Below are positions 3,689 to 36,771 of a stretch of DNA of 36,776 nucleotides, piece by piece. This DNA is from a virus: IMG/VR virus record IMGVR_UViG_3300030061_000512, positions 1-36,776 of that record, one strand, 5' to 3'. The notes below the pieces were generated by a model, which made no database searches, had not been told where the DNA came from, and saw only the letters and a program-made list of their open reading frames with translations. A program made the position numbers and the translations under genes. Within the stretch, counting starts at the first letter, position 1. Each line of letters begins with the position of its first letter.

Positions 3689-3725
3689 TCTTCATATAGA
3701 GCATGTTCTACAAGGAAGGGCTGTA

Positions 3726-4010: not shown

Positions 4011-4013
4011 ACT

Positions 4014-4286: not shown

Positions 4287-4288
4287 AG

Positions 4289-6166: not shown

Positions 6167-6224
6167 GTGGGACACAGCTATATTCTTATAGGAGCAACTC
6201 GTTGAAGACTCCTAGGAGGGGCTA

Positions 6225-6965: not shown

Positions 6966-6984
6966 CCTTTTAGGAGTAAATTAA

Positions 6985-7950: not shown

Positions 7951-7968
7951 ATCAATAGCTCGGCTGGT

Positions 7969-8017: not shown

Positions 8018-8263
8018 ATGGGTAGAGAACTAGCAATAGGGTACGGAACAAACCGAAGAGTTTACGGTGATCCAGGCGAAGGCTACACACAGCCAACACC
8101 TCGTGATGCTTACTTCGGTGGACGAAATATCAGATCAGTAAACCCTGATATTCCGTTTGAAGAGCCGCAAGCAGCGGCTTGTTCAGCGACTACTAAAGCT
8201 GGTGACGCCTGCAAAGCTCGCCCTGCAGAAGGCGAAAGCTTTTGTACCTTCCATAAGGAGTAA
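8018..8263 (+). CDS. Small protein with C-terminal Cys3-His zinc-binding motif
   Basis: An 81-residue protein. The N-terminal half is Gly/Tyr/Pro-rich. The C-terminal 27 residues hold C55, C65, C76 and H79 in the pattern C..TTKAGDAC...FC.FH, typical of a small zinc-binding module seen in many phage and bacterial proteins (often annotated DUF5763). It may be a head decoration or connector accessory because it stands between capsid and connector genes. That role is inference. Its stop is two bases before the next GTG. Confidence 0.65.
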   Translation: MGRELAIGYGTNRRVYGDPGEGYTQPTPRDAYFGGRNIRSVNPDIPFEEPQAAACSATTKAGDACKARPAEGESFCTFHKE

Positions 8264-17171: not shown

Positions 17172-18902
17172 ATGAATCAACCCTTGTATTCACGTCTTTT
17201 AGATGTTCCTACAAATGCTTTAGCAGCTTTAGATAGAAAATTATTTGGTGACTATCCTGAAAGCAATCCGCAGCGCAAATCGTGGCAGGAAACACCTCAG
17301 GTAAGTCCGATGCCTGGTACTGGGCGACTTGTTCCTGATGCTAATGGTGTTCCACGGTTTATGCCTGATCGGCCTAATCTTAAAACGTTAGAATTTGTGC
17401 CTGGTAGAGATGCAACTATGGCTGATATACAGAAAGTGAAAGCAAAGTTGGAATCTCCTGCTTATGGCCCTTCGCTTGGAGAGCAGTCTTCTGTAACTCC
17501 TGAAGAACGAGCAGCACATAACCAACGACTTGCTTTAGAAGATTTACGTCTAGCTGCAGAACAGCAATATGGCGGTGGATCTCCCGCTCGTCCTGAAGGG
17601 CAGTTTGAGAAAGCTCCGCCTAAAGATCCTAATGATTTTGAGTGGTGGGATTCTGACCAAGGAATCATAGGAAATTTGCTGCAAGGGGGTAATAATCTTT
17701 TAGATGCTCCTTCAGATATTTTAGAAGCTTTAGATAGGAAACTATTTGGTGAGTATCCTCAAGCTCCTTTTACAGAGTCTTATGTTCCTAGCCAGTTTGG
17801 GTTAGTTGAAGGTTCGGAAACTAATCCTGGTGGGCGTTATAGCCCTGAGTGGGCTGCTTCTATGGCGGCCATAGGTGATGAACGTTATAGCGCTGCGATG
17901 GATCGGGCTAGAGAAGCTGCTATGCGGCGGGCTGCTCAACAACCTCAATTAATACAAGAACAGCCTCAAACTTTAGACATGGAATGGTTTCAATCTATGT
18001 TTCCTGGTGCCGCTGCTGGTGGCAGTGGCGGTGGTATAGGGTCGTCAGATGCGCTTGCTGATCTTGGAAGATCATCTGCTCAGGGTCGTTACAACGATTT
18101 AACTAGTTATTTAGATTCAGAACGTGCTACTCGTGGCGCTCAGTTCGATAACGACGAACAAGCAATCGTTAAACAGCTTTTAGCTTCTGACGCTCAACGG
18201 CGTCAAGGCGAAGAGATGTATACAAACAAGCGACAAAAGTCGTTTGATGATTTGCAGAATAAGTTTGATGTTCGTACTGAAGCTGCAACTGAACGATTAA
18301 AGAATCTTGGGATTGATCCTGCTGGTTACACGAATGTGGTTGGTCAGGAAATGGGTGCTTTGCTTGGTGCTCAGATGCAATCTGGTTCTGATTTAGCTGC
18401 TCGTATGGCGATGCTTGGCGCTGAACGTGCTCAGGCTGGGATAGGTCGTGCTCGTTCGGGTATGGCTAAAGAACGTCGTCAGTTTGATTCAAGAATGTCT
18501 GACTTCTTGTTCCAGGGTTCTCAGCGTTTGTCGTATGAGCTTCAAGATGTTAATGAGGCTTTGCTTAATCGTCAGATTACAGCGCAGCAAGCTCAATCTC
18601 AGATTGATGCTGCTGCTCAAGAAGCTCAAAGAGCCGCAATGCTTGCAATGGTTCTAGGTCAAGAGGTTGGGTTGAGTCCTGAAGCTGCAGCGGCTACTAC
18701 TGCTGTTCCTGGGTCGATGAACAAGTTTATTGACGCTAATGCTAGGCAAGGACAAACTGTAACTATTGGTCCTAATATGCTGCCAGAAGCTTTTGATAAC
18801 TATATTGGACTTGAGATCCCGTTATCCGCTTATCAAGCTTTCATTGATGCGGAGAACACTAAAGCTAAGACTGCGAAAACTAAATCTGAAACTTTGGGTT
18901 AG
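17172..18902 (+). CDS. Internal virion (ejection) protein 2, putative
   Basis: A 576-residue, mostly helical protein. An internal duplication is visible: residues 9-29 (LLDVPTNALAALDRKLFGDYP) and about 176-196 (LLDAPSDILEALDRKLFGEYP) share 15 of 21 positions. Residues 300-510 are Gln/Ala/Arg-rich helices (RMAMLGAERAQAGIGRARSG; QITAQQAQSQIDAAAQEAQR). A Gly-rich hinge lies near 280. Size and place between a small and a giant helical protein fit a middle ejection protein that forms the periplasmic conduit. Confidence 0.62.
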   Translation: MNQPLYSRLLDVPTNALAALDRKLFGDYPESNPQRKSWQETPQVSPMPGTGRLVPDANGVPRFMPDRPNLKTLEFVPGRDATMADIQKVKAKLESPAYGPSLGEQSSVTPEERAAHNQRLALEDLRLAAEQQYGGGSPARPEGQFEKAPPKDPNDFEWWDSDQGIIGNLLQGGNNLLDAPSDILEALDRKLFGEYPQAPFTESYVPSQFGLVEGSETNPGGRYSPEWAASMAAIGDERYSAAMDRAREAAMRRAAQQPQLIQEQPQTLDMEWFQSMFPGAAAGGSGGGIGSSDALADLGRSSAQGRYNDLTSYLDSERATRGAQFDNDEQAIVKQLLASDAQRRQGEEMYTNKRQKSFDDLQNKFDVRTEAATERLKNLGIDPAGYTNVVGQEMGALLGAQMQSGSDLAARMAMLGAERAQAGIGRARSGMAKERRQFDSRMSDFLFQGSQRLSYELQDVNEALLNRQITAQQAQSQIDAAAQEAQRAAMLAMVLGQEVGLSPEAAAATTAVPGSMNKFIDANARQGQTVTIGPNMLPEAFDNYIGLEIPLSAYQAFIDAENTKAKTAKTKSETLG

Positions 18903-25765: not shown

Positions 25766-26083
25766 GTGGCTGAAGAAGAACCTCTTGAAGATAGCTGGGC
25801 TATTTGGATGGCCGAAGAAGGTTTAGCTATTGAAGATGAGATTCATCAGACGTTGCTTGCAAGCAAAGGTTTGCTTGACATGGATGATGGGACTCATGCT
25901 CAATGGTTGAGTGGCACATTAGGTGTTCTTCTTACATTTGATTTAGAAGAAGTGAACTCTCTTCTTAATGCGTGGGATGAAGCTCAAGATGGGAACGTTG
26001 TTTCTTTAGCGGTGGTGCTGCATTGGGTGCAGGGGTTCACTACTTTTCTTGATGCTTGTATAAGTAATTTGGATGAGAACTAG
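25766..26083 (+). CDS. Acidic helical protein, last gene of the left arm
   Basis: A 105-residue strongly acidic protein starting at GTG 25766, just after the holin stop. The frame is open upstream, but that part only overlaps the holin gene. It has helical stretches (DGTHAQWLSGTLGVLLTFDL; SLAVVLHWVQGFTTFLDA) with Trp and Leu, but no clear membrane segment. It could be a lysis regulator or antiholin partner. That is a guess from position. The stop overlaps the stop of the opposite-strand gene. Confidence 0.55.
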   Translation: MAEEEPLEDSWAIWMAEEGLAIEDEIHQTLLASKGLLDMDDGTHAQWLSGTLGVLLTFDLEEVNSLLNAWDEAQDGNVVSLAVVLHWVQGFTTFLDACISNLDEN

Positions 26084-26095
26084 GTTTCTCTAGTT
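26078..26095. terminator. Weak inverted repeat at the convergence of the two arms
   Basis: AACTAG and CTAGTT form a 6-pair stem around GTTTCT where the + and - transcripts meet. No T-run follows directly on either strand, so it is only a weak candidate terminator. Both arms may read through or stop by collision. The CTAG at 26080-26083 contains the TAG stops of both genes. Confidence 0.3.
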
Positions 26096-26565
26096 AAGTA
26101 TTCTTGTACTGCTTTTTGTTGCAGCAAACTAGTTCGTAGTTTGTTTGCTAGGTCATCTCTGCGTCTGGCCATAGTTGTTTTGGGTATGTCTAATATTATG
26201 GCTACAAAACGCAAAGAAAGACCCACGTCAACGAGCATGTGGTAAAGCCACTGCTCGTCTTCTGTGAGTCCCATGAATGTTTCATGTACTGCGAGAATAA
26301 GATCTTCTCGGTTTTCTTCTCGTTCTTCTATAGACCGAAGCGGATCCTCGAAAGGACCCGCTTCCATTATGCTTTGTATCTCTGATATAGGGGTAGGCCT
26401 GTAATGACTTTCTTTTTTTAGAATAAGCTTTTTAGAGCTATGTCCCCAGTTGTTACCTTTGGGTTTACTGGTTACGTTTGTCCAAGGTCGTTGTGGTTGT
26501 AGTGAAGGAAAGTTTGCTTTTCTAAGAGCGTTAAAGAGTTTTGCTCCCTGACTTTCTTCATCCAC
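26080..26565 (-). CDS. Sigma-region-4-like HTH regulator (putative)
   Basis: A 161-residue protein starting at GTG 26565, overlapping the previous gene by 8 bases. The C-terminal part (residues 85-145) reads like a sigma-70 region 4: LTEDEQWLYHMLVDVGLSLR, then FVAIILDIPKTTMARRRDDLANKLR, a helix-turn-helix with a basic recognition helix. The N-terminal part is basic and Pro-rich. As the last gene of the early/replication block, directly facing the late arm, it could redirect RNA polymerase to late promoters. This is inference. No region 2 is present, so it is not a complete sigma factor. Confidence 0.6.
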   Translation of the reverse strand: MDEESQGAKLFNALRKANFPSLQPQRPWTNVTSKPKGNNWGHSSKKLILKKESHYRPTPISEIQSIMEAGPFEDPLRSIEEREENREDLILAVHETFMGLTEDEQWLYHMLVDVGLSLRFVAIILDIPKTTMARRRDDLANKLRTSLLQQKAVQEYLTRET

Positions 26566-27025
26566 CGTTCCAATGCAGGTATTCTGAGTGTATTGAGAAG
26601 AACAATTTGTTGTTATCGAAGTTTCCTACAGGAATGTCTTCGGTGTTAATGATTGTCATAAGTTCTCTGTAACTCAAATCTGCATAGTTTTGGCGTGACC
26701 GTGACCAAATCCAAAACCACACATCCAGTTCGGACGTGTCCCACCACTGTAGCGCACGAATTTTATTGAACTTTACTTTAAGCATTTCGTCGCCACCCAT
26801 ACCCATTACTTCTACTAGGCGAGGGAACCCGCCGTTAGATAACTGTATGTAGTCGGGAGTAGCTGCAAACGTTTGAGGTATTTGATGTAACTCGAAGCCG
26901 TCGGGTCGGTTAAAGCCGAACCGTTCCCAGCCTCGTTCTCGTTTCTCGAACTCGCCTTCGGCTTCGTCACCCATTGATTTGTAGCGTTCTTCGTAAGGAC
27001 GTTTATGAAATGCTGGGGCCATCAT
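26558..27025 (-). CDS. PD-(D/E)XK-like nuclease (putative)
   Basis: A 155-residue protein. Residues 56-90 (TPDYIQL, then RLVEVMGMGGDEMLKVKFNK) show D58, E72 and a downstream Lys in the order of a small PD-(D/E)XK fold. E21 in a helix before them (GDEAEGEFEKR) would complete the site. The usual E-x-K is E-V-M here, with Lys displaced, so activity is uncertain. Later residues (LDVWFWIWSRSR) form a hydrophobic strand common in such folds. It lies beside RusA, so it may serve DNA recombination or processing. The start has AGGGAG. Confidence 0.5.
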   Translation of the reverse strand: MMAPAFHKRPYEERYKSMGDEAEGEFEKRERGWERFGFNRPDGFELHQIPQTFAATPDYIQLSNGGFPRLVEVMGMGGDEMLKVKFNKIRALQWWDTSELDVWFWIWSRSRQNYADLSYRELMTIINTEDIPVGNFDNNKLFFSIHSEYLHWNGG

Positions 27026-27360
27026 TTTTTTCTCCCTACTATCCGATACACCATGATGTCGTCGTCATAAGCGACGCCATTTAATGCGTCTTCGACTGCT
27101 TTCAAGTAGTTAGTGGTGTCTCCTCGTAGCTTTGTTTCGCTGTCTTCTAGTTCAGAGATAGTTACTTGTGTTCGTTTCGATGTGAACACACAGCTAATAG
27201 AGATAGGTCCCTCAAACTTGGGGCCGTCGTAATGGTTGCGGATATGTTCTTCGTGTTCCAGTGTGGACTTAGGTGTATACGTTCTTCCTCGTGCGAATCG
27301 AGGACGACCTTTAACCTTTGGTTTTCCTGGGACAGTGAACTTGTATGAACGTTTAGTCAT
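27022..27360 (-). CDS. rusA: RusA-family Holliday junction resolvase
   Basis: A 112-residue protein with the RusA layout: N-terminal strand FTVPGKPKVKGRPRFARG, then GDTTNYLKAVEDALNG and the DDD near residue 100. Catalytic counterparts are D81, K87 and D99-D101. The second Asp of the usual D-x-D-N-x-x-K is Thr83 here. It would resolve recombination or replication junctions before packaging. ATG 27360 is preferred to an in-frame start at 27393 because it gives the normal N-terminus. It overlaps the primase gene by 8 bases. Confidence 0.85.
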   Translation of the reverse strand: MTKRSYKFTVPGKPKVKGRPRFARGRTYTPKSTLEHEEHIRNHYDGPKFEGPISISCVFTSKRTQVTISELEDSETKLRGDTTNYLKAVEDALNGVAYDDDIMVYRIVGRKK

Positions 27361-28276
27361 GATACCTCGTTGTTTGTGCAGCCTTAGAAACAATGTTCTC
27401 TAACTGTTTCTCTCTGTCTGCTCGGTCAACAAACTTTTCAAGTCTTTCGTCAAGGCGTCGAAGCCAATCAAGTGTTGCGTCAGAGGAATACTCCTGCCAA
27501 AGAAGACTGCTAGCAAAAGCGTACATCGCTTCAGACCGATCTGAGAACTCTCGTTGTTCCCAAATTGTTTTAGCGTTGCCCTTAAAATCGCCGTCTTCTC
27601 TGTTTCCTGGCTTGTATTGAGGGGCTTTAGGTTCCGTTGCCTCGAAGAAACGAAGCAACGAGCGAAGCAACCCTGGCGAAGTTCGTGATGCCCATGCAGC
27701 GTCAACAAATTCTTCAAGGGAGAAGAAAGAATCTGTTTTAGATGGGTCATACACTTCGTGTCGGCCAGGGTTACGGTGCTCAGGGTAAGGCAAACGTAAA
27801 CAGTTGCCTAGAGCACCTTCGTTCAATGATGTTTGTTTTGGATACACCTCTCGGGTAGGGACATCGACAATACGGCATGCACCTATCAAAGCTTTGCGTG
27901 CCACGGTAGCTGCTACTGGTTCAGTTAAGTAAACCCAAACGTGGTAGCCCTTGCTCTTCGATGTTTCTTTCCAGCTTTGTATCCCTGTCTTCTCCAACAA
28001 AGCAATCAGATTGTCTGCATGGACGCTAGAGTTTTCTCCATCATCGAGGTCAACAGCAGTCCAGTTGACCATCCACACTCCGTTACGTTTCCATAACGGG
28101 TATACCCCAAGTGCAAGTTTGCCATTGAGATGTCGGTCTATGTGTTGCAGGTATTCTTCTCCGTAGCCAAGGGCTACGTGCTTGTCTTCTTCTAACGGAT
28201 GAACCCAATCGGTTACGTCAGCTAACGCTCCGCCTTCGTGTAGTTCAGCGAACCTTGTAAGAGTTATTCCACCCAT
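27353..28276 (-). CDS. Archaeo-eukaryotic type primase (prim-pol)
   Basis: A 307-residue primase. The catalytic metal-binding pair is D76/D78 (AVDLDDG), the nucleotide-binding Ser-x-Lys-x-x-x-His is S108-K109...H112 (SKSKGYHVWVYL), and GNCLRLPYPEH follows at about 155-170. The C-terminal ~120 residues are helical, possibly the primase C-terminal domain. It makes primers for replication, and some relatives also elongate DNA. It lies in an operon with the helicase and resolvase, overlapping both. No zinc-binding TOPRIM-type primase is present, so this is the sole primase. Confidence 0.8.
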   Translation of the reverse strand: MGGITLTRFAELHEGGALADVTDWVHPLEEDKHVALGYGEEYLQHIDRHLNGKLALGVYPLWKRNGVWMVNWTAVDLDDGENSSVHADNLIALLEKTGIQSWKETSKSKGYHVWVYLTEPVAATVARKALIGACRIVDVPTREVYPKQTSLNEGALGNCLRLPYPEHRNPGRHEVYDPSKTDSFFSLEEFVDAAWASRTSPGLLRSLLRFFEATEPKAPQYKPGNREDGDFKGNAKTIWEQREFSDRSEAMYAFASSLLWQEYSSDATLDWLRRLDERLEKFVDRADREKQLENIVSKAAQTTRYHD

Positions 28277-29244
28277 CGGTCATCCCCAGGAATATCGTTC
28301 TCATAATATTCTCTCACAAGACCACAGTTCGGGTCCATGTAATAGTCAATGGGAGGGTCAGTTACCTGACATGGTGGACGTTTGTTCTTACACAGATCCA
28401 ATGATACTGACACTGAATGGATTCTTCTTTCAGCATCAGAAAGCTTTGGGTCATCTCTTCTTCTGAACACGTTTAGCTGCAGGATTGCGTATTCGTCGGC
28501 ATTGAATTTGCCGTCGTCCATGCCTCTTGATGTGCCACGGGTGGAACCTTTGCCTGACTGGTGAACCAGTCCGACTGGCAGGTTCTCTGTTTCTGCCCAC
28601 TCTTTCAGTCCTTTAAGAACTGTTGATACTCCTTCGTATCCTGATGCGCCAGGAAGTTGTTCGAGGAAGTCAACCATTACGAATCGTGGTTTGTGTTGCC
28701 AGTAGTCTTCGCATTCCCTCATTGCGTTACTCATGTCGTTGAATGACAGAGCGTTAGGGAAGATTTTGATTCTGTCTAGGAACCCGTACTTGGCTTCTTG
28801 AATTTCGTTGATGACTGTTTCGTCTTGGCTGCGTAGAGCTTCTTCCACTTCAGCAAGATTTCGTTGATATATGAGCGCATAGAGTTTGGATACAACCAGG
28901 ATCTCGGGTTCGTCAGGAGTGTATATGACTCCGTAGAAGTCTGGGTCTTCTTGTAGGTTGCGTGCCATTGAGGATAGAAGCACTGCGGATTTGCCGCTGT
29001 GTGCTCTGCCTGTGACGACGAGTACGTCGCTTGGCCAGACTCCTCGCATGCGACTGTCTATGTCTTGTAGTCCTAGATGGAAGCAGTCGTGGCTTCCTTT
29101 AGCGTATTCAACCCAGCGGTCTACAGCGTCTGCGGTTGGCTTAAAAAATTTGTACTGTGGCTCTCCCTCGGGGAGATCAATGCCCGCAAGTCGGGCATCG
29201 ATCTCCTCGGTGGTGAGGGCGACAGCTTCGTCACCCTCACTCAT
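28264..29244 (-). CDS. RecA/DnaB-type replicative ATPase (helicase)
   Basis: A 326-residue protein. Walker A is GRAHSGKS (79-86) and Walker B is RFVMVDF (D192). The spacing and the following QLPGASGYEGVSTVLKGLKEWAETENLPVGLVHQSGKGS match DnaB-like and RecA-like cores. The length is shorter than full DnaB, so the N-terminal helicase/primase interaction domain is missing or reduced. It probably unwinds DNA or loads other proteins at the fork. It overlaps the primase gene by 13 bases and abuts the next gene by one. Confidence 0.82.
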   Translation of the reverse strand: MSEGDEAVALTTEEIDARLAGIDLPEGEPQYKFFKPTADAVDRWVEYAKGSHDCFHLGLQDIDSRMRGVWPSDVLVVTGRAHSGKSAVLLSSMARNLQEDPDFYGVIYTPDEPEILVVSKLYALIYQRNLAEVEEALRSQDETVINEIQEAKYGFLDRIKIFPNALSFNDMSNAMRECEDYWQHKPRFVMVDFLEQLPGASGYEGVSTVLKGLKEWAETENLPVGLVHQSGKGSTRGTSRGMDDGKFNADEYAILQLNVFRRRDDPKLSDAERRIHSVSVSLDLCKNKRPPCQVTDPPIDYYMDPNCGLVREYYENDIPGDDRWVE

Positions 29245-30017
29245 TAGTTCCCCTTATATGCAAACTGTTGTAGTTCTTGGCGGCGAGCCACCCAGTCCCA
29301 TTCAACTGCTTGAGCTTGAGGTTGTCCTGAAGCTTGGTCCCAAACCTTGATAGGCACATTGCTGTCCCCATCGTTGACCCAGATACCAACGTCACGAGGG
29401 GTCGTAACCCCGATGTGTTCCAACGCATCCTTACTGATCGAGAAGTTAGGGAAGTTCTTCCCAGTCTTTGTCACGTCAGTAGATCCATCAGCGTGTTCTT
29501 TAACTTCGTACACCTTGAGGGTGGTTCCCTCTTGGGTGTCCCACTGATTTGGATGGAACGCAAGCAAGTTGAAAGCTGCTTGCCTTTCGTCTGCACCTTT
29601 ACCTGTACAAAATTCGGTGCGCTTATATGTGCGCCCACTCATTTTTGCACCTGCTGGTGCACCTTGAACAGGTGATGGAGGTGCCGCTACTGAAGCTGCC
29701 GTCGGTCCTGTCGGACCACTGACACTCGCATCCGCTTCCGAGGGGGCGGCGCTTGCACTACCAGCAGACCTGGAAACGCCGCTTTTCAGGCGTCGCATCA
29801 CAACCCCGTCGGGAGAAAGATCTATCTCCTGACCTGATTGTTTCAGGACCTCACTCTTAACTTGTTCAAACATGGAAGACGCTTCGGCAAGTATGCCGTC
29901 ATCTCCCATTGACTCAGGGATACTCCGCTCAATGGAGAGCGAATAGTCCGCTGTTTCATATGGAGCCTCACTTACTTTCTGCGTGAAGCTAACTGTCACC
30001 TTTGCTGTGTCAGTCAT
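29244..30017 (-). CDS. Possible single-strand DNA-binding or recombination accessory protein
   Basis: A 257-residue protein in three parts: a compact N-terminal domain (residues 1-80; VTVSFTQKVSEAPYETADYSL); a Ser/Ala/Pro/Gly-rich linker at 80-125 (SVSGPTGPTAASVAAPPSP); and a C-terminal domain at 128-257 with strands such as GTTLKVYEVKEH and PIKVWDQASG. Genes between replicative helicase and recombination nuclease in phages often encode SSB. The C-terminal domain could be OB-like but this is not proven. No catalytic residues stand out. Confidence 0.5.
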   Translation of the reverse strand: MTDTAKVTVSFTQKVSEAPYETADYSLSIERSIPESMGDDGILAEASSMFEQVKSEVLKQSGQEIDLSPDGVVMRRLKSGVSRSAGSASAAPSEADASVSGPTGPTAASVAAPPSPVQGAPAGAKMSGRTYKRTEFCTGKGADERQAAFNLLAFHPNQWDTQEGTTLKVYEVKEHADGSTDVTKTGKNFPNFSISKDALEHIGVTTPRDVGIWVNDGDSNVPIKVWDQASGQPQAQAVEWDWVARRQELQQFAYKGN

Positions 30018-30032
30018 CTCTTACCTTTCTCC

Positions 30033-30800
30033 CTACCAGGGATTCTCTCCGAGGTGTTCACCTCGGCATTTGCCTGCCTGCCAGACAGGACACCATAGAG
30101 GAGAGCAATGCCAGCCCTCCCAATTCTGTGGCCAGGTCTTAGCGTCCGACATGATTGTCGGCACCATCGACCAGCACAGTTCCAGAAAAGCTTTCTTATG
30201 CTGTTCTGTTCTTTCGATCTCAATTATTTGAAGCTTCCCATTGGCCATCACACCGAAGTTGAACTCCGATGCATCGAGTGCCCAACTGTAGGCATGGGAT
30301 TGTATATCCCAACGCTTCTTCTCCCAAGCTTGGTACTCCCTGCCAGGATTCTTCCAATCCCACAGTGCTCCAGACTTGTCTACCCAGTCAACGGTTCCAG
30401 TCAGAACCAACCTAACGTTGTCTCTTCTGCCTATCTCTCGTTCAAATGGGACCTCTACTCCTTCAGGATCTAAAGAAGGGAACAGTTCCTCATACCAAAC
30501 TGCGAGATTCGCTCGGACCACATCGACTATGGCTTCGTACTCATGTCGCCACACTTCAACCTCAGATGAGTAGGTAGCAACAAACTCTTCTGCTACTTCC
30601 AGTACATCATCCAAGCTAGGGCGAGGCATGCCAGCCATTATTAGACGGCCTGCGTATTCGATAGCTCCGTGAACAGCGTTCCCTCTAAGAAAGTCTGTTG
30701 ACTCTCTTTGGGATACAAGACCTAAACGTTCTTGTCGTGCCTGTTCAGGGCATCTAAGAAATGTATTAATCCAACTCTGTCGTAAACGTATTTCAATCAT
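30033..30800 (-). CDS. Cas4/RecB-like Fe-S nuclease
   Basis: A 255-residue exonuclease-type protein. PD-(D/E)XK residues are H44 (GNAVHGAIEYA), D138 (TGTVDW), D148 and K150 (WDWKNPG), and Q-x-x-x-Y in the following helix (IQSHAYSW). Four Cys, C17, C232, C237 and C245, match the Fe-S cluster of Cas4- and AddB-type nucleases. It probably resects DNA ends for recombination-dependent replication. It is the first gene of the third early block, with AGGGAG before ATG 30800 and the palindrome at 30868-30888 upstream. Confidence 0.82.
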   Translation of the reverse strand: MIEIRLRQSWINTFLRCPEQARQERLGLVSQRESTDFLRGNAVHGAIEYAGRLIMAGMPRPSLDDVLEVAEEFVATYSSEVEVWRHEYEAIVDVVRANLAVWYEELFPSLDPEGVEVPFEREIGRRDNVRLVLTGTVDWVDKSGALWDWKNPGREYQAWEKKRWDIQSHAYSWALDASEFNFGVMANGKLQIIEIERTEQHKKAFLELCWSMVPTIMSDAKTWPQNWEGWHCSPLWCPVWQAGKCRGEHLGENPW

Positions 30801-30822
30801 CTATCTCCCTGTTCGGTGGAGC

Positions 30823-30846
30823 CGTCCCGCAGGGAGACACGGGACG
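30823..30846 (-). promoter_or_regulatory. Inverted repeat in the nuclease 5' leader
   Basis: CGTCCCG and CGGGACG arms (7 pairs) with a 10-base spacer lie between the palindrome and the nuclease start, 13 bases upstream of the ribosome site. It may form an RNA hairpin in the leader that affects stability or translation. No T-run follows. Confidence 0.35.
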
Positions 30847-30867
30847 ACCCAACCTTGTGACTTCTCC

Positions 30868-30888
30868 ATTTCTAACAGTGTTAGAAAT
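30868..30888. promoter_or_regulatory. Palindromic operator candidate, copy 3
   Basis: A perfect 21-base palindrome of the form ATTTCTAACA g TGTTAGAAAT, centred on 30878, 78 bases upstream of the Cas4-like gene start. The same 19-base core is repeated at 35778 and 36758. A dimeric regulator is the natural binder. No convincing -10/-35 pair could be matched by eye. Confidence 0.72.
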
Positions 30889-30907
30889 AGAAATTCCCCA
30901 TTGCTTC

Positions 30908-30943
30908 AAATGGGGGGAACCCTTTTGGGGGTTCCCCCCATTT
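30908..30943 (-). terminator. Strong stem-loop terminator between early blocks
   Basis: Fifteen-base perfect arms AAATGGGGGGAACCC (30908-30922) and its complement (30929-30943) enclose a 6-base loop. On the - strand it follows the HTH gene (stop at 30964) and ends with three T, and on the + strand with four T, so it may act in both directions. It separates the accessory block from the replication block, just before the palindrome at 30868. Confidence 0.8.
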
Positions 30944-30963
30944 TAACATGGATACAACTAAAG

Positions 30964-31257
30964 TCAAACAGCCCCTTCTCCCAGAGGCGGTTCAACCTTG
31001 TGTAAACGTTCAAATTGTGCACGTTCAACCATGTCATGTGTTCTTTGTCGAGACAACCCGATGCTACGTCCAACTCGTGCTTGGTTTCCCTCTGAATGGA
31101 CAGCATCTAACAATGCATGTCTACGCATATAACTGGTGAGCTTTGCCTGTTCTCTCAACTGGTTGTCTATATTGTCCAGATGTTTGAGGGCAACCAGAGG
31201 GTCTGTGTTGTCTACAAACTTTCTTAAAGTGTTGTGTAGCTCTTTAGTCGTGCTCAT
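30964..31257 (-). CDS. HTH protein, putative transcriptional regulator
   Basis: A 97-residue protein starting at ATG 31257 (ATGA overlap; GGGAG eight bases upstream). Residues 56-82 (AVHSEGNQARVGRSIGLSRQ, then RTHDMVERAQ) read as a helix-turn-helix of the type used in small DNA-binding regulators. The N-terminal 45 residues are charged and helical, suited to dimerisation (NIDNQLREQAKL). It is the last gene of the middle block and a candidate to bind the nearby palindromes. This is only a hypothesis. Confidence 0.6.
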   Translation of the reverse strand: MSTTKELHNTLRKFVDNTDPLVALKHLDNIDNQLREQAKLTSYMRRHALLDAVHSEGNQARVGRSIGLSRQRTHDMVERAQFERLHKVEPPLGEGAV

Positions 31258-31436
31258 TCGCAGCACTCCCTTTCTTTCTCTGTGTCAGCCCACGTTTTAG
31301 CTGCTTGTTGAGCTTCGGCCAGTGTCTCAAAGAACTGTTTGTAGTGACCATCTTGTAGCACCACATATCCTGATGTTCTTAACCCTGCTCCCAATGGGAC
31401 AACTTGTCCTTTGATTTCGTACTTAGAGAGACTCAT
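31254..31436 (-). CDS. Small hypothetical protein
   Basis: A 60-residue protein with SLSKYEIKGQVVPLGAGLRT and a Glu/Lys-rich C-terminus ending ECCE. ATG 31436 with GGAGG upstream is clearly better than the longer open frame. Start and stop overlap its neighbours. No family recognised. Confidence 0.55.
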   Translation of the reverse strand: MSLSKYEIKGQVVPLGAGLRTSGYVVLQDGHYKQFFETLAEAQQAAKTWADTEKERECCE

Positions 31437-31656
31437 TGGCTCTAGCCTCCATAATTTGTTTTCGGGTGAACGCATCTTGGTACGGTGCGTGCTTCTCCCG
31501 TCTTGGTCCTGATCCACGTTTCTGATCTGCCTTGTCTTTGTTGTATTGGTTCCATGCGGAACGACACCCAAGACATCTGCATCCGTTCCCATAATGAGAA
31601 GCTGATGGTTTCCCTTTGCAGTTGTATCCGTGTCGTCTGTTTCTATTCGTTGCCAT
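31423..31656 (-). CDS. Small CRC-type protein A (possible metal binding)
   Basis: A 77-residue basic protein. HYGNGCRCLGCRSAW (residues 21-35) gives three Cys with the preceding His, a motif very common in small proteins of actinobacterial phages (HG....Y..GCRC..CR.A). It probably forms a compact metal- or DNA-binding unit. It is paralogous in its motif to the gene at 31824-32048. It overlaps neighbours by 14 bases at each side. Confidence 0.62.
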   Translation of the reverse strand: MATNRNRRHGYNCKGKPSASHYGNGCRCLGCRSAWNQYNKDKADQKRGSGPRREKHAPYQDAFTRKQIMEARANESL

Positions 31657-31855
31657 CAGTATCCCTTAGGGGGATGACATCGGCATCTTGTTGTTCTTCT
31701 GCTTCTTCATTAGCAGTACGCAAAAAGATGTGCATTTTCTCTTCAAGTCGTTCTGCCCGCTCAAGCATTAGCACTGCAAGTTTACGGTCAGAATGAATTA
31801 CATCATGAGCTTCGTCTAACAATTCAAGTAGAAGCTCTGGGTTTATATTTTCCAC
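31643..31855 (-). CDS. Small coiled-coil protein
   Basis: A 70-residue acidic, helical protein (INPELLLELLDEAHDVIHSD; LAVLMLERAERLEEKMHIFL) that could form a short coiled coil. It starts at GTG 31855, with a purine-rich AAGGGAAA upstream, inside the end of the previous gene (32-base overlap). Function unknown. Confidence 0.5.
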   Translation of the reverse strand: MENINPELLLELLDEAHDVIHSDRKLAVLMLERAERLEEKMHIFLRTANEEAEEQQDADVIPLRDTDGNE

Positions 31856-32048
31856 GAGGTTTCCCTTCTCTTAGTAAAGATCTAATTGCTGCTTTTCTTT
31901 GACGTGACGTTTCTTTGTCGTCCCAGTCCTCCCATCTCTGTTTACATTTCTTACATCTGCATCCACCTAAGGCATAGGTAGCTATGTAGCCATGCTTAGT
32001 GAAGTCTGTTTTATTCCATCTGATTGTGAAGCTGTCTTCGTAACTCAT
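31824..32048 (-). CDS. Small CRC-type protein B (possible metal binding)
   Basis: A 74-residue basic protein with HGYIATYALGGCRCKKCKQR (residues 19-38), the same HGY...GCRCxxC pattern as the gene at 31423, and a Lys/Arg-rich C-terminal helix. The pair may bind DNA or RNA through the basic part. It overlaps the HNH gene by 38 bases, the longest overlap in this operon. Confidence 0.6.
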   Translation of the reverse strand: MSYEDSFTIRWNKTDFTKHGYIATYALGGCRCKKCKQRWEDWDDKETSRQRKAAIRSLLREGKPRGKYKPRAST

Positions 32049-32628
32049 AGTTCTCTGCTTTTAATTCTTCAATTTCTTGTTCTAATTGGTATACGACAAC
32101 TGAATGCGTACTTGCTTCAAGCGAGTTGTCTTCGGCTGTTACTAATTCTAAATGGTTGATGTTGCAGCATCTTGGTTCGTGACATGTGTGATGCACCTGC
32201 AATCCCTGAGGAATAGAACCATTATGGTAAACCCATACCATACGATGTGTCAAGGCGTTGCGGATTGTGCCTACTCGTTCAGCAATCACCTTGCTATTGA
32301 CCGCTCCGTATCCACCATTCTGCGTAAAGCCCTGCCAAAGAATGCAAACAGTTCCGTCCTTACGAATGATGTGACCAAGCTGAACATGAGCAAACGCAGG
32401 ATTCAAATACGTTTCAACCCGTTCCTCAAACGTAAGAGTTGACATCAACCTGATAGGAATATCAGTACGAGGTGTCCCGTACTTCAGTAAATGATTCCTG
32501 TGTCCATGACACAAAGGAATCTGACCGTCTTTAGATCCAGGCCCACGATACGGAAGCAACGTCCGACGCTCACGCTGGCACTTACTTCCATCAGGAAGTA
32601 TCGCCCCACATTCCCCCCTGATTCGCAT
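32011..32628 (-). CDS. HNH homing-type endonuclease (putative)
   Basis: A 205-residue protein. The HNH motif is LTHRMVWVYHNGSIPQGLQV followed by HHTCHEPRCCNINHLELVT: His pair, Cys pair and Asn-x-x-His in the order of the HNH_3 group. The N-terminal 50 residues contain Cys and His pairs (CGAILPDGSKC, CHGHRNH) resembling a zinc knuckle. The C-terminus is a short coiled coil (LEQEIEELKAENYELRRQL). Such genes can be selfish, or act in packaging or cleavage. Here it sits inside an operon, not in an intron. Confidence 0.8.
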   Translation of the reverse strand: MRIRGECGAILPDGSKCQRERRTLLPYRGPGSKDGQIPLCHGHRNHLLKYGTPRTDIPIRLMSTLTFEERVETYLNPAFAHVQLGHIIRKDGTVCILWQGFTQNGGYGAVNSKVIAERVGTIRNALTHRMVWVYHNGSIPQGLQVHHTCHEPRCCNINHLELVTAEDNSLEASTHSVVVYQLEQEIEELKAENYELRRQLHNQME

Positions 32629-32960
32629 CAGTACCTACCACAAGTCCAAAGATCCCACTTAAGTATCGTGTTGTTAAAGATCCATCTAGCAAAGCGAGTG
32701 TTCTGTTCTACGTCGTATCGGTCATGCCAATAGTCAGCAAACACTTCACCCCACACTGGTTTATAGATCTGAAAGATCCCGTAAGAACCTTCAGGGTTAT
32801 AGGCGTATGGGTTATGGAAACTCTCGCACCAGCTTACTGACAAGGCACGCACGCAATCATCTCTAAAGTATTCACAGACGATTGGTGCCACCTCGTTAGG
32901 TGGCGAAACGTTTACGCTCACCAGATCTATGATCGTCCAGATTTCTAGCCAAACATTCAT
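32628..32960 (-). CDS. Transglycosylase-like/lysozyme-fold protein
   Basis: A 110-residue protein with the lysozyme-superfamily pattern: catalytic Glu46 in LSVSWCESFHNPYAYN, GSYGIFQI at about 58-65, and a W..GEVF...W helix, then NTRFARWIFNNTILKWDLWTCG. It resembles Slt-type domains, which cut the glycan between MurNAc and GlcNAc. The N-terminus is weakly hydrophobic (WLEIWTIIDLVSVNVS) but not a clear signal peptide. It stands in the early operon far from the amidase, so it is not the main lysin. It may act in entry or have another role. Confidence 0.68.
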   Translation of the reverse strand: MNVWLEIWTIIDLVSVNVSPPNEVAPIVCEYFRDDCVRALSVSWCESFHNPYAYNPEGSYGIFQIYKPVWGEVFADYWHDRYDVEQNTRFARWIFNNTILKWDLWTCGRY

Positions 32961-33124
32961 CCTTCTACCTCAATTCGCTTAGGAGAACTGTTGCAGCTAA
33001 TCGACTTATTCCAAATATGGACAGGCCAATCAGGGACACCATTCTTAGGACGGATAAACCCAAACATCTCAGACTCTAAGCGTGTAGGTCTACCGCATCT
33101 CTTGCACTGCTTTGTATCCGTCAT
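32957..33124 (-). CDS. Small zinc-ribbon-like protein
   Basis: A 55-residue protein beginning TDTKQCKRCGRP (CxxC knuckle near residue 7) with a third Cys near residue 45 (SISCNSS). ATGA overlaps on both sides couple it to its neighbours. It may bind one zinc ion with help from a His. The role is unknown. Confidence 0.62.
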   Translation of the reverse strand: MTDTKQCKRCGRPTRLESEMFGFIRPKNGVPDWPVHIWNKSISCNSSPKRIEVEG

Positions 33125-33342
33125 TCGACTATCTCATCGAAGTCAATCTCAGGATCTTCAACAAGCATCTCTAACTGATACTGAATAGCTCGATCAGTTA
33201 TGACATCGATGCTTGGGATGAACTCTAAGAAACTGTCTTGGTCTTCTACATACTGCTGTTTCAACTCGTCCAAGATCAGGACAGTGAACAACGCAAACGC
33301 ATAAGCCGAGCGTTCTAGATCTGTAAATGCAGAGTCACCCAT
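33121..33342 (-). CDS. Hypothetical acidic protein
   Basis: A 73-residue acidic helical protein (LERSAYAFALFTVLILDELK followed by many Glu/Asp). It is not hydrophobic enough for a sure membrane segment. The start overlaps the upstream gene by eight bases. No family recognised. Confidence 0.5.
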   Translation of the reverse strand: MGDSAFTDLERSAYAFALFTVLILDELKQQYVEDQDSFLEFIPSIDVITDRAIQYQLEMLVEDPEIDFDEIVE

Positions 33343-33532
33343 AGTATGTCTCTGCTTCTGTTTCTATCCAGACACGAGCGCCACATCGGTCAGGCTCATC
33401 AGGCTGAACGATGTAACAAGGGCCATCTACAAAGACTCTACGGTGATGAGTAGAGCCTTTATAAGTACGATCAATAATAGCGGGTTCACCCTTCTTAATT
33501 TTCTGTTGGTGAACGTGGATAACATGCTTCAT
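33335..33532 (-). CDS. Small basic hypothetical protein
   Basis: A 65-residue protein with HVHQQKIKKGEPAIIDRTYK and VDGPCYIVQ segments. ATG 33532 with GGGAGAG upstream fits the overlap (TGATG) with the gp88-like gene better than longer starts. It may be beta-rich. Function unknown. Confidence 0.5.
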   Translation of the reverse strand: MKHVIHVHQQKIKKGEPAIIDRTYKGSTHHRRVFVDGPCYIVQPDEPDRCGARVWIETEAETYYG

Positions 33533-34323
33533 CACTCTCCCTTTCTGTTGGTGGAAGCAAACCTGACATTGTTGCGACCGTAGATACACATGCCACACTC
33601 GACACATGCGCCACGACCGAACACTCCGTCGTCGTCCCAGACGACCATCGGAGTTTTACCTGTTAGCTCAGGACACTTAGGTCCCTTGCGACGGTGCGGA
33701 AACTTGGCAGCTAACTGTTCAGTCTCTTCCCAAGTGTCAGCACAGAACGCCAGCATCGGTTCGGACAGCAAAGCTTTCTCTGTCCGAACCGCATCCAGCA
33801 CATTATCCTTATCAACAGATAAGTAAATAGCTAGGTTACTGACACCCATAAGTAGAGGGACTGCCTTAAAGGTTCTCGTATACAACCAGAACTGAAACTC
33901 AGGGAAGTCTTCTGCTACTCGTTTGATTGCTTGAGCGAACGCAGCGGAGGGAATGTCACCATCCCAGAAGTGACGGAACACCCACTCGTCTTGAGGTATG
34001 CCTGCTCGGACATACTCGATAGAGCATTCACTGAGCATGGCACTGAGCATGGCATGCAGTGTGTCTACATCGTTGAGATGAGGAGACACGACATCCCAGT
34101 TCTCTTGCACCAAGTTGCGGACGCCTGGAAAGTTCTGAAGTGCCAACGCATAACACGCATCAGCGCACCATTCTGTGTGCCCAGGACAAGAGACAAGGGC
34201 GGGAAGCCCGAAAGTGTTCTTAACCTTCGGGGTCCCCTCGTTAATGCCGTTGCCTTTCTTCTTGACTAGAGGTGCAACTTTGCGGTCACTACTTAAGCGT
34301 GGCAACCCAACGTTGACAATCAC
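33532..34323 (-). CDS. Gp88-family protein, radical-SAM-like
   Basis: A 263-residue protein. The N-terminal Cys cluster C46-x6-C53-x3-C57 (SCPGHTEWCADACYA) resembles an Fe-S site, followed by a TIM-barrel-like succession of strands (FRHFWDGDIPS; FQFWLYTRT; LAIYLSVDKDN). The C-terminus has three more Cys, C240-x2-C243-x2-C246. I recognise the actinophage gp88 family by this layout. Its function is unknown. The chemistry of a radical SAM enzyme is suggested but not shown. It starts at GTG in a GTGA overlap. Confidence 0.75.
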   Translation of the reverse strand: MIVNVGLPRLSSDRKVAPLVKKKGNGINEGTPKVKNTFGLPALVSCPGHTEWCADACYALALQNFPGVRNLVQENWDVVSPHLNDVDTLHAMLSAMLSECSIEYVRAGIPQDEWVFRHFWDGDIPSAAFAQAIKRVAEDFPEFQFWLYTRTFKAVPLLMGVSNLAIYLSVDKDNVLDAVRTEKALLSEPMLAFCADTWEETEQLAAKFPHRRKGPKCPELTGKTPMVVWDDDGVFGRGACVECGMCIYGRNNVRFASTNRKGE

Positions 34324-34670
34324 GATTGTTCTTTACCTAGGAACGCTCCGAGCAAACTATGAATACTCTTAAGAGTTTCCATGATGTCATCAGTACGAGG
34401 ATCTTGAGGCTGCATAGCTTTCACTGCCTCTTGCACTTCGCGCTCTACTACGGCTTCTAGTTTCTCTTCGCTGACATATCCCCACTCTGCAAGCAGGTCA
34501 GGCATATTAGCTCTGAAGATGCTGTCCCAGTAGTAGTAGTTACCGATGCCGTCACTTATATCATCGCTGAAATCCATGTTCTGCGAATACTCTTCTATTG
34601 CGCTATCGACTTTGTGTTCGATTGCATCGAACATCCCATCGTCATCTATTTCTATTGTGAATTCAGCCAT
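34320..34670 (-). CDS. Hypothetical acidic protein
   Basis: A 116-residue acidic protein with FTIEIDDDGMFDAIEHKVDS and a helical body (EEKLEAVVEREVQEAVKAM). No known motif. Its stop overlaps the gp88-like start (GTGA), so the two are co-translated. It is the second gene of the middle block. Confidence 0.55.
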   Translation of the reverse strand: MAEFTIEIDDDGMFDAIEHKVDSAIEEYSQNMDFSDDISDGIGNYYYWDSIFRANMPDLLAEWGYVSEEKLEAVVEREVQEAVKAMQPQDPRTDDIMETLKSIHSLLGAFLGKEQS

Positions 34671-34686
34671 TGGTTTCTCCCTTGTT

Positions 34687-34716
34687 TGGCTATGAAGTGC
34701 TTAAGCACATCAGCCA
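34687..34716 (-). promoter_or_regulatory. Inverted repeat in the gap before 34670
   Basis: The perfect 12-base palindrome GTGCTTAAGCAC (34697-34708) is nested in outer TGGCT/AGCCA arms. A second pair, AGACA...TGTCT, follows at 34716-34736. The 83-base gap between the DUF932 gene and the next gene holds no open frame, so this may be an RNA hairpin that tunes expression of genes downstream of the DUF932 gene. Confidence 0.4.
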
Positions 34717-34753
34717 GACACAAAACATATTTGTCTTGTACCTGACGGGATGC

Positions 34754-35731
34754 TCAAACTCCGACTAGCTCACGCATCCTATGAGTGAGCGGAGTGTCGT
34801 TATCCCTAATCTGATCCACCTGCTTCCTTATCTGCAGATCAGTACTAGAGGAGCGAGTGAAGTCGTGTGTCTCCGCAGATTGAATAGCATTCCACGCAGC
34901 CCACGCTGTACCAGCCGCAGGACCATCGTCCTCCACCTGCCAGTAATACTTCACAGCTTTCATTTTCTCTTCCCACGCATTCATGGTCCGAGTGCTCACC
35001 TCTTCACCCTCAGGTGCAGTCGGCTCAGGCAGAAAGGTACGAAGAAAGCTCTGATATTGAGCATAAGTAAAGAGTATGCGACGCATAGCGCCAGCCATAC
35101 GGTTAAACATCTCCGCATGTTGCCCTGCTTTAGCAAGCACAAGACTACGATCCAACAGAATCTGATCGTGATTCGTAGTTCTACGCAGCTTTATCTTGGT
35201 GTTCTCTGCTGTGCATTGGTTGCTACAGAAGAGCCGCCCAACATATGAAGACATAAACGTAGGCCACGTCCCATCCAAAGAACCACCTATAAGGAGATTC
35301 GACTGCAACCAGTCTGGATAGTCGGGGCTAGCTACGTTGTATACATCTCCTAGTTCAAAGGTTGCCATGAATCGCTTGCCGTTATCCAGCGGGCGCATAG
35401 CTGTGCATGAGTTAGGGAAAGCAGCTTCTACTGTTTCAATCCACTGTTGGTGGCTGGACTCGGGATGCTGAGGTGGAACTACATTGAGGAGAACTTTTTT
35501 CCCGTCCTCCATTTTCCTGTAGAGCTTTTTCCTCTCAGGCTGACCCTTGTATTTGCCACTCTCTACTTCCTGTATTTCGCCCTCTAATGTTAATGGCTCT
35601 GAGTGGACTTCGAATAGGACTCCGTTATCGATAGCGGCATCCACAGCATTCATTTGACCACCGAACCTATGCTCGGACTCGATCATGCCGTATTCACCTC
35701 CACCGTATGGAGTCGGGGATATGATGCTCAT
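34754..35731 (-). CDS. DUF932-family protein
   Basis: A 325-residue protein resembling the DUF932 (plasmid/phage-type) family: TATFELGDVYNV strand, RLFCSNQCTAENTKIKLRRT in the centre, long helices, and TAWAAWNAIQSAETHDFTRS near the C-terminus. The family is widely present in phages and plasmids, without an established function. It has a strong GGGAGG ribosome site and is the first gene of the middle block, 38 bases from the palindrome at 35769-35787, so it is probably expressed early and strongly. Confidence 0.78.
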   Translation of the reverse strand: MSIISPTPYGGGEYGMIESEHRFGGQMNAVDAAIDNGVLFEVHSEPLTLEGEIQEVESGKYKGQPERKKLYRKMEDGKKVLLNVVPPQHPESSHQQWIETVEAAFPNSCTAMRPLDNGKRFMATFELGDVYNVASPDYPDWLQSNLLIGGSLDGTWPTFMSSYVGRLFCSNQCTAENTKIKLRRTTNHDQILLDRSLVLAKAGQHAEMFNRMAGAMRRILFTYAQYQSFLRTFLPEPTAPEGEEVSTRTMNAWEEKMKAVKYYWQVEDDGPAAGTAWAAWNAIQSAETHDFTRSSSTDLQIRKQVDQIRDNDTPLTHRMRELVGV

Positions 35732-35768
35732 ACTTAACCTCCCTGTTAATGATGTGTATGAGAACTTG

Positions 35769-35787
35769 TTTCTAACACTGTTAGAAA
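35769..35787. promoter_or_regulatory. Palindromic operator candidate, copy 2
   Basis: A perfect 19-base palindrome (TTTCTAACA c TGTTAGAAA) centred on 35778, 47 bases upstream of the DUF932 gene start. Its centre base is C instead of G. It overlaps the next hairpin by three bases. See the two other copies. Confidence 0.72.
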
Positions 35788-35806
35788 TAGGGCACTGACC
35801 CTATTT
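35785..35806 (-). terminator. Stem-loop beside operator copy 2
   Basis: AAATAGGG and CCCTATTT (8 pairs, 6-base loop). It lies between the end of the gene at 35840 and the operator, so it could end transcription of the first early block. On the - strand only three T close the stem. Alternatively it is part of the operator region. Confidence 0.5.
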
Positions 35807-35839
35807 GCACCTCGACCTAAGTATAGGCCCTGTATTCAC

Positions 35840-36253
35840 CTAAGTCAACGACTCGTTGACATCTATGTATGATCCGTCAGCATCTATGTATTTGCTTACT
35901 TCAGACCACACTTTTAAGCGGTCATCAATCCTGCGATCCAATAACTCATTAAACCAGTCATTGTGTTCGCTAATAACAATGTCGAACTGATGACAGATAG
36001 CTTCTTCAAGCGCTGTCATCAAACGACCTGTCGTTGTGTCGTCTCGCTTCATGTCCAACGACATATGTTGAGTAGTGAAAAAGTGGTAAAGCTTCGAGCC
36101 AGCAGATTGCCAGCCATCGCTCACATCCCAACAACCAAGACCGACACGCACTTCCTTATCGGTAAGGATGTCACAGCCAATAGGGATTTCTGCACCACAA
36201 CGATCACACCACATTTGAGCGTCACCATCTTCAATAATCATTTCAAAAATCAT
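35840..36253 (-). CDS. Hypothetical protein with CxxC
   Basis: A 137-residue protein starting at ATG 36253 (GGGAG upstream). A longer open frame to 36316 lies inside the membrane-peptide gene. Residues 10-25 (DAQMWCDRCGAEIPIGCDIL) give a CxxC knuckle plus a third Cys, suggesting zinc. The rest is helical and acidic. No family recognised. Confidence 0.6.
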   Translation of the reverse strand: MIFEMIIEDGDAQMWCDRCGAEIPIGCDILTDKEVRVGLGCWDVSDGWQSAGSKLYHFFTTQHMSLDMKRDDTTTGRLMTALEEAICHQFDIVISEHNDWFNELLDRRIDDRLKVWSEVSKYIDADGSYIDVNESLT

Positions 36254-36254
36254 T

Positions 36255-36419
36255 TCAAGCTCCCTTTCTATGTTCAGAGTCCAGCATTGCTTGCCAGTAC
36301 TCAGGACCACGGGCACGCTCTCGTGCCCAGTACCACTGACTAATCAGATAGCAACCACGACAGAACATGATTACGCACAGAACTAGCAGCGGGCCAGGAT
36401 ACATAGGTGCAGCAGGCAT
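36255..36419 (-). CDS. 54-residue membrane peptide
   Basis: Residues 9-27 (GPLLVLCVIMFCRGCYLIS) form one membrane-spanning segment with three Cys, followed by a charged helix (WARERARGPEYWQAML). ATG shares a base with the previous stop (TGATG). An early membrane peptide could alter the host envelope or block superinfection. This is inference. Confidence 0.6.
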   Translation of the reverse strand: MPAAPMYPGPLLVLCVIMFCRGCYLISQWYWARERARGPEYWQAMLDSEHRKGA

Positions 36420-36706
36420 CAGCCGACATCCAGATGACTAGCCCTGCTAAACGCAGCTTCTTGAGCACGAACTAATCTCGTAACCATTGCTTCAGCGTCG
36501 AACTCGTCAGCGCTAATCTTACGTTTCTGCATTTCATTCAACAAGCTCTGTAACTCATCGACTACTACTTTTGCATGACCTATGCCGTCATAGTCTTGCT
36601 GCCAGCGATCCCAATTAGCAACAAACACATCTGAATGGTTAGTCACTTGAGCTTTAAGTAGCTCGGGACTCGCTAAATGAATATTCTCAAAGTCTATATA
36701 GGACAC
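36419..36706 (-). CDS. Small acidic protein, first gene of the right arm
   Basis: A 95-residue helical protein with VDELQSLLNEMQKRK and AMVTRLVRAQEAAF. The start is GTG 36706, with GGGAG seven bases upstream. A TTG at 36748 would put the start inside the palindrome and is rejected. It lies 52 bases from the palindrome centre. Function unknown. Confidence 0.6.
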   Translation of the reverse strand: MSYIDFENIHLASPELLKAQVTNHSDVFVANWDRWQQDYDGIGHAKVVVDELQSLLNEMQKRKISADEFDAEAMVTRLVRAQEAAFSRASHLDVG

Positions 36707-36744
36707 AGTGATTCTCCCTTTGTTGTATCCGTTATTAAGTATCC

Positions 36745-36771
36745 CCAATTTCTAACAGTGTTAGAAATTGG
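36745..36771. promoter_or_regulatory. Palindromic operator candidate, copy 1
   Basis: The longest copy: two 13-base perfect arms around a single G at 36758, with the core TTTCTAACA g TGTTAGAAA. It is the last feature before the right end, upstream of the outermost early gene. If the genome is circular it also lies about 92 bases upstream of the first late gene, and so between divergent operons. Confidence 0.75.

Follow-up and report, generated by a model that had tools for sequence, protein, structure and literature searches.

The three early gene blocks of the virus record IMGVR_UViG_3300030061_000512 (36,776 bp, classed as linear; this whole stretch is referred to here as the window) are each headed by a copy of the same 19-bp palindrome, TTTCTAACAnTGTTAGAAA, and these palindromes are likely to be immunity-type operators for a phage-encoded dimeric repressor that would be encoded just past the right end of the window and would block RNA polymerase after it leaves the early promoters. 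Sequence comparisons support the operator nature of the palindromes, the swapping of their alleles between relatives, their agreement within genomes, their association with a gene next to a fourth palindrome (P4), and their placement after promoters. The three copies, with both arms perfect, lie at 30869-30887 (P1, TTTCTAACAGTGTTAGAAA), 35769-35787 (P2, TTTCTAACACTGTTAGAAA), and 36749-36767 (P3, TTTCTAACAGTGTTAGAAA) and are assigned to neither strand; on the + strand, the center base is G in P1 and P3 and C in P2. Only 0.02 copies were expected, none of 100 shuffled sequences contained three, and the window has no further copy even when as many as 3 mismatches are allowed, in agreement with a first-pass annotation that had reported three exact copies and no other full one. 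The distances of 47 to 78 bp given there from the palindrome centers to the first genes of the three - strand blocks were also correct: P1 lies in the leader of the exonuclease block (gene start, 30800), P2 in that of the DUF932 block (35731), and P3 upstream of a gene starting with GTG at 36706.

Operator classes among close relatives

Relatives were gathered through the exonuclease and DUF932 proteins, and their leaders were then compared; more distant relatives were gathered through the terminase small subunit. A palindrome, perfect or near-perfect, occupies the place of P1 in all 17 close relatives with a readable P1 leader. The leader is nearly constant across this close group, yet the palindrome falls into three classes: TTTCTAACnnnGTTAGAAA (class 1, that of the window), TTTATAACnnnGTTATAAA (class 2), and AAAATATAAnTTATATTTT (class 3). 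According to the first-pass annotation, absence of the motif from the corresponding positions of related phages would have spoken against a regulatory site. The motif is indeed absent there in part of the relatives, but a different palindrome stands in its place, which strengthens the operator interpretation.

Classes differ between genomes that are otherwise almost the same. For example, L021 (class 1) and L023 (class 2) are 99.2% identical over 9.9 kb, with 78 substitutions in 9946 bp, 4 of which fall inside the 19-bp site, where 0.14 is expected (P = 1.5e-5). The two arm changes are symmetric (C4A with G16T), and such mutually compensating changes fit the needs of a DNA site bound by a dimer. 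The genomes G019 and G018 share 97.7% identity across 14.2 kb, but P1, P2, and P3 are each class 1 in G019 and class 2 in G018; the P1 sites of the two are separated by 4 substitutions (P = 0.001 against the 14.2-kb background), and P2 of G018 has an intermediate sequence, TTTGTAACAGCGTTATAAA. In a third pair, L015 (class 1) and L100 (class 3), 97.5% identity extends over 6.6 kb spanning both P1 and P2, and yet the class of each site differs. Sites of one genome share a class, with one exception (L013, below): there are five class 1 sites each in G017 and G019, four class 2 sites in L025, and five class 3 sites in L100. L024 and L033 also have a class 3 palindrome, located at the convergent junction where the early block stops.

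From these patterns, the protein that uses the palindromes as operators appears to be dimeric and encoded by the phage, rather than a host regulator. Hijacked operators of a host transcription factor would be in keeping with promoters that resemble host sigma70 promoters and with the presence of the motif, six times, in an unrelated phage (L010, discussed below). However, near-identical phages, which presumably share a host, differ in the motif, and a search of 84,980 genomes of bacteria and archaea found the motif in only 13 scattered, unrelated genomes, once in each and at about chance level. A host factor is therefore very unlikely. Of the dimeric regulator of phage or host origin envisaged in the first-pass annotation, a phage-encoded dimer with operators at the head of the early blocks is supported and the host protein is not. 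Nor are the two window genes put forward as sources of the regulator, at 30964 and 26080: their products resemble those of the window equally in L021 and L023 (92% and 92% for the former, 80% and 81% for the latter) despite the different operator classes, so that the specificity is not set by these two genes.

A candidate regulator gene and private palindromes

The third palindrome is followed by only 9 bp before the record ends, and a further 1.6 kb or so of the circularly connected genome is missing from it, as estimated from L006 and L012, with L100 spanning the gap. Both L006 and L100 reach past the right end of the window, and L100 continues to the terminase genes. In relatives, the gap region holds two further palindrome copies and the likely regulator gene, in the order P4, a - strand gene of 230 to 265 codons, a terminator rich in GC, and a fifth palindrome that is usually imperfect; L006 adds a short open reading frame (ORF). 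The P4 gene is located at 14-724 in L123, 5619-6317 in L100, 8572-9330 in L006, and 87-818 in L011. P4 is adjoined, immediately before the terminase genes, by direct repeats of the GC-rich sequence GGTCGG and by a conserved block (L117, 1-150; L122, 250-480), possibly a packaging or origin site.

The P4-gene product is probably the regulator, as judged from the way it tracks operator class. The class 1 products of L006 and L011 are 68% identical, and the partial product of L122, whose operator is class 1 with one mismatch, is 93% identical to that of L011; taken together, L006, L011, and the N-terminal part of L122 are homologous at 59 to 93%, and all are class 1. The class 2 product of L123 is 57 to 68% identical to the class 1 products in its N-terminal part, and identity to class 1 falls to about 25% for the class 3 products (L100 and L126). 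A 32-residue end of the gene in L025 (class 2) is identical to L123. Gene allele and operator class pair in those contigs of the close group that contain both, where independent pairs are few. The C-terminal domain varies separately from the N-terminal one, with class 2 (L123) and class 3 sharing one type and class 1 having another. The two class 1 proteins keep the segment TKSxLQKxxRxKA (9 of 13), which is altered in class 2 (4 of 13); between-class similarity of the N-terminal domain preceding it is as high or higher. On the basis of these three sequences, the segment is likely to be the recognition element.

Distant relatives, found via the terminase small subunit, often hold an ORF of similar size, for a different protein, in the P4 slot, and many of them have their own repeated palindrome in the early region, in up to 13 copies. 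These private palindromes include TTCTAGAAynrTTCTAGAA (L129 and L130), GTTACTAAnTTAGTAAC (L131 and L072), TGTGGAAnTTCCACA (G007, 13 copies), CGTCGCGTnnACGCGACG (L141), TTATGTCACGTGACATAA (L149), and CTATGTGAAnTTCACATAG (L162 and L166). In a comparison of 35 loci, the motif follows the regulator group, with L010 as the clear exception. Related regulators are accompanied by related half-sites in three cases: classes 1 and 2, groups F and I (hhalign probability, 95%), and L131 and L136 (phmmer E value of about 1e-5). Comparisons by hhalign between the remaining regulator groups gave no detectable similarity, and therefore no single family is claimed for the slot. Coverage is incomplete, with several members lacking a site of their group motif (e.g., L148, L165, L173, and L174). 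A profile scan for further regulators returned only three loci, all already in the set.

The presence of several spaced palindromes in a number of genomes is also what would be expected of distributed centromeres or other plasmid-maintenance sites of the N15-like, ParB-bound type, which might silence genes as well. In line with this, GTTCCACGTGGAAC, the core of chromosomal parS sites, occurs several times in Stenotrophomonas phage BUCT555 (L286; five sites, including 473-486, 2371-2384, and 37885-37898) and in the marine contig L161 (2158-3811). However, no ParA or ParB family match was found in the records searched, and the palindromes lie at set distances from early promoters, making a centromere function very improbable. 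BUCT555 was dropped as an example of a private operator: its GTTCCACGTGGAAC sites have no upstream promoter, several are within genes, and the sequence equals the parS core. The neighboring BUCT555 protein has no similarity to the L161 protein, and group H (L161) was not counted as having a private operator. No repeated palindrome was found in Ruegeria phage 45A6 (L288) or Alteromonas phage ZP6 (L289). In the circular podovirus ct52p938 (L287), which has a similar exonuclease/DnaB/primase/RusA set, TGTTTCCnnnGGAAACA occurs about 15 times (198-41434) in early and late regions, partly in late genes.

Promoter spacing and the proposed roadblock

Few sites lie outside the early region, and some follow a promoter at a short distance. 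A strong TTGACA/TATAAT-type promoter lies 20 to 75 bp upstream of 19 of 72 sites in 13 contigs, compared with 1.6 expected; these contigs include related genomes, and 10 promoter-site pairs are left in the 20- to 80-bp bins when one genome is taken per lineage. The histogram of promoter-site distances has its mass at 20 to 60 bp on the early strand and nothing in that range on the other strand. In the window, the sigma70-type promoters of the P1 and P2 blocks, both on the - strand and predicted from the consensus by a script, are located at 30940-30967 (-35 TTGACT at 30962-30967, 16-bp spacer, -10 TAAAAT at 30940-30945) and 35820-35848 (-35 TTGACT at 35843-35848, 17-bp spacer, -10 TATACT at 35820-35825), respectively. 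P1 begins 52 bp after its -10 element (51 to 52 bp across the close group) at a position kept in relatives, and P2 begins 32 bp after (31 to 32 bp). The place of the P3 promoter is beyond the end of the window; in L025, G017, and G019, it is TTGACT-17-TAAACT, and P3 begins 32 bp after it, the distance being 41 bp in L100.

This placement suggests repression by blocking RNA polymerase, as a protein bound downstream of a promoter is an obstacle to the polymerase; such roadblocks have been reviewed (PMC10310618), and the stoperators of mycobacteriophages block elongation (PMC6550527, PMC9283540). In the proposed mechanism, the repressor gene is flanked by P3 on one side and the terminase genes on the other; P4, its own operator, lies upstream of it, a weaker site is close to its terminator, and the early operons begin at strong host-type sigma70 promoters. 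A repressor bound to an operator about 31 to 65 bp past the -10 element, roughly at +25 to +60, would leave the promoter uncovered and halt the polymerase, and the exonuclease/replication, DUF932, and P3 blocks would be shut off. Each phage would have its own protein/operator specificity, one that differs between close relatives, which is expected if the system is of the immunity type and silencing of a newcomer by a resident or coinfecting relative has to be avoided. From these arrangements, we infer that the P4-gene product binds DNA, that it represses and does not activate, that it does so as a roadblock, and that it takes part in superinfection immunity.

Alternatively, the palindromes could act in RNA, as stem-loops of the early leaders that are bound by a protein or steer decay, attenuation, or antitermination. 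Such a role would suit the location of P1 to P3 within the predicted transcripts, after a 5' hairpin, and arms of 8 bp around a 3-nucleotide (nt) center could fold. However, the symmetry extends through the center, with one free base, in class 3 and in the GTGGAAnTTCCAC and TTACTAAnTTAGTAA families, which a loop would not need, and the AT-only class 3 sequence would make a weak hairpin. In addition, P4 lies upstream of the predicted promoter of the regulator, and another site lies near its terminator. A function in RNA is accordingly very improbable. As to the leaders themselves, each predicted P1, P2, and P3 transcript possibly has a 5' hairpin and then the operator (window, 30905-30946 and 35788-35819; L006, near 8160-8190). 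At P1, this is a GGGGGG...CCCCCC inverted repeat at 30905-30946 (- strand), which lies between the promoter and the operator where the 5' end of the transcript is predicted, with a hairpin at the same place in relatives; at P2, the hairpin sequence of L100 differs from the others, with the place kept. A separate hairpin in the exonuclease leader (window, 30804-30850, - strand; L021 to L081) has a loop complementary to its own Shine-Dalgarno sequence in most relatives, over up to 13 nt in L061. The match between loop and own Shine-Dalgarno sequence averages 6.83 nt, compared with 5.98 nt when swapped between genomes (29 distinct but related leaders; 0 of 5000 permutations), and the structure looks like a loop:Shine-Dalgarno pseudoknot controlling translation.

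Several observations weigh against the repressor interpretation. No strong consensus promoter lies 20 to 75 bp upstream of 53 of the 72 sites. P4 is a poor fit to a simple roadblock, being located upstream of the regulator's own predicted promoter; transcription from that promoter would, from its predicted start, yield a nearly leaderless mRNA. The window itself contains no regulator gene, and regulator and operator are found together in only six contigs of the close group, some of them near-identical, with a single full-gene contig of class 2. The P4-gene product has no match in Pfam, PHROG, PDB sequences, or the phage collection (tblastn). Its AlphaFold2 model, built from four sequences, has a mean predicted local distance difference test score of 62 and gave no Foldseek match against the PDB and viral models; it is mostly helical, with moderate confidence for residues 21 to 160 and low confidence elsewhere. 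Homology thus lends no support to DNA binding. L013 combines a class 1 P1 with a class 3 palindrome (6548-6566) at the convergent junction that closes the early block, the sole exception to agreement within a genome, and may be a recombinant or an assembly chimera. Finally, L010, otherwise unrelated, carries TTTCTAACAnTGTTAGAAA six times (up to one mismatch; 3419-7960) and has no detectable regulator homolog. The small protein in its analogous slot has no detectable similarity to the regulator, and three of its sites lie 33, 40, and 65 bp after TTGACA-17-TATACT promoters.

The blocks headed by the palindromes are all on the - strand. The P1-headed block (26080-30800) encodes the PD-(D/E)XK exonuclease, the 29244 product, a DnaB-like helicase, primase, RusA, the 26558 product, and a sigma-like protein (26080). 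The P2-headed block (30964-35731) encodes the DUF932 protein, the 34320 product, GP88, small ORFs, an HNH endonuclease, and the 30964 protein, and the P3-headed block (35840-36706) consists of three small ORFs of unknown function. The portal, capsid, and terminase genes of the window are on the + strand, and in the annotated phage collection, the closest relatives by capsid are <40% identical. A 2OG-Fe(II) oxygenase-like gene (1526-2134, - strand) lies on the opposite strand inside the late block, and a 67-bp direct repeat (85% identical; 17195-17762) lies within one large ORF with no family match. An Rfam search of the window gave no match.

Lifestyle and comparison with known systems

Pfam searches of 24 records (the window and relatives) gave no integrase, serine recombinase, or ParA, and those of 14 records gave no ParB, HTH_3, rve, or S24; control genomes matched in both searches, and several of the records are 34 to 40 kb long and may be incomplete. 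The phages are probably virulent or kept in some unrecognized way, an unusual integrase being possible. These negative results, along with the near-confinement of the sites to the early region, would suit a protein that acts as a temporal regulator only, shutting off or tuning early transcription in a purely lytic cycle, with operators that drift along with the protein and no immunity. This is a serious possibility, if not a probable one: the class switches between genomes that are >97% identical, together with the many unrelated private motifs, suggest that new specificities were selected for and did not arise by drift.

Repressors of the immunity type count as a hallmark of temperate phages. 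Such a repressor in phages with no detected integration or partition gene raises the question of what purpose superinfection immunity would serve in apparently virulent marine phages. The open-access literature yielded no repressor/operator system of this kind for integrase-free marine phages. A more far-reaching and tentative proposal is that marine phages that do not form prophages nonetheless carry a fast-diversifying immunity system, in which one slot beside the terminase genes holds about nine mutually undetectable families in the loci compared, each with private roadblock operators, and phages sharing a cell silence or ignore each other; if true, this would apply to a large group of marine phages. 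The operator swaps between 97 to 99% identical genomes amount to a natural experiment: they point to the regulator with no need for culture, and they imply that recognition specificity is under selection. For uncultured relatives, they provide a reading rule whereby a private palindrome leads to the regulator and the early promoters.

Among known systems, that of the Streptomyces phage phiC31, a temperate phage that integrates and whose repressor binds conserved inverted repeats, is similar in having several near-identical palindromic operators across the early region, at early promoters, and one phage-encoded repressor, here a putative one. Multiple near-identical palindromes in early intergenic regions are found here as well. 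The differences are that no integrase was found here, that the operators lie downstream of sigma70-type promoters, and that the candidate regulator has no family match in the libraries searched, which were Pfam, PHROG, and the phage collection by tblastn. The lambdoid CI/Cro systems share dyad operators, a regulator (here a probable one) that the phage encodes next to one of the operators, and possibly a leaderless regulator mRNA. In contrast to those systems, there is no HTH_3 DNA-binding domain or S24 peptidase domain here, as CI/LexA-type or Xre repressors would have, there are no tandem operators over two divergent promoters, and no integrase was found. N15-type phages, which have distributed centromeres with a ParB-like protein, resemble the present ones in the spaced palindromes of their regulatory regions and differ in that no ParA or ParB was found here; the ParA ATPase and ParB of a ParABS partition system are thus missing from the records searched. 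In Cluster A mycobacteriophages, such as L5 and Bxb1, a genome-specific stoperator motif diverges with the repressor (PMC6550527), and the sites are asymmetric, 13 bp long, bound by a monomer, and biased in orientation (PMC9283540, PMC6550527). The likeness lies in the many sites per genome, the genome-typical motif diverging with the repressor, and, as proposed here, the block to elongation and heteroimmunity. Unlike those stoperators, the sites described here are 9-1-9 or 8-3-8 dyads; moreover, Cluster A phages carry an integrase or parA, neither of which was found here, and the searches made gave no similarity of the present regulator to known families. The best reading is that the system works like an immunity repressor, with an anatomy that appears closest to the inverted repeats of phiC31 and to Cluster A immunity and with a regulator that would be new.

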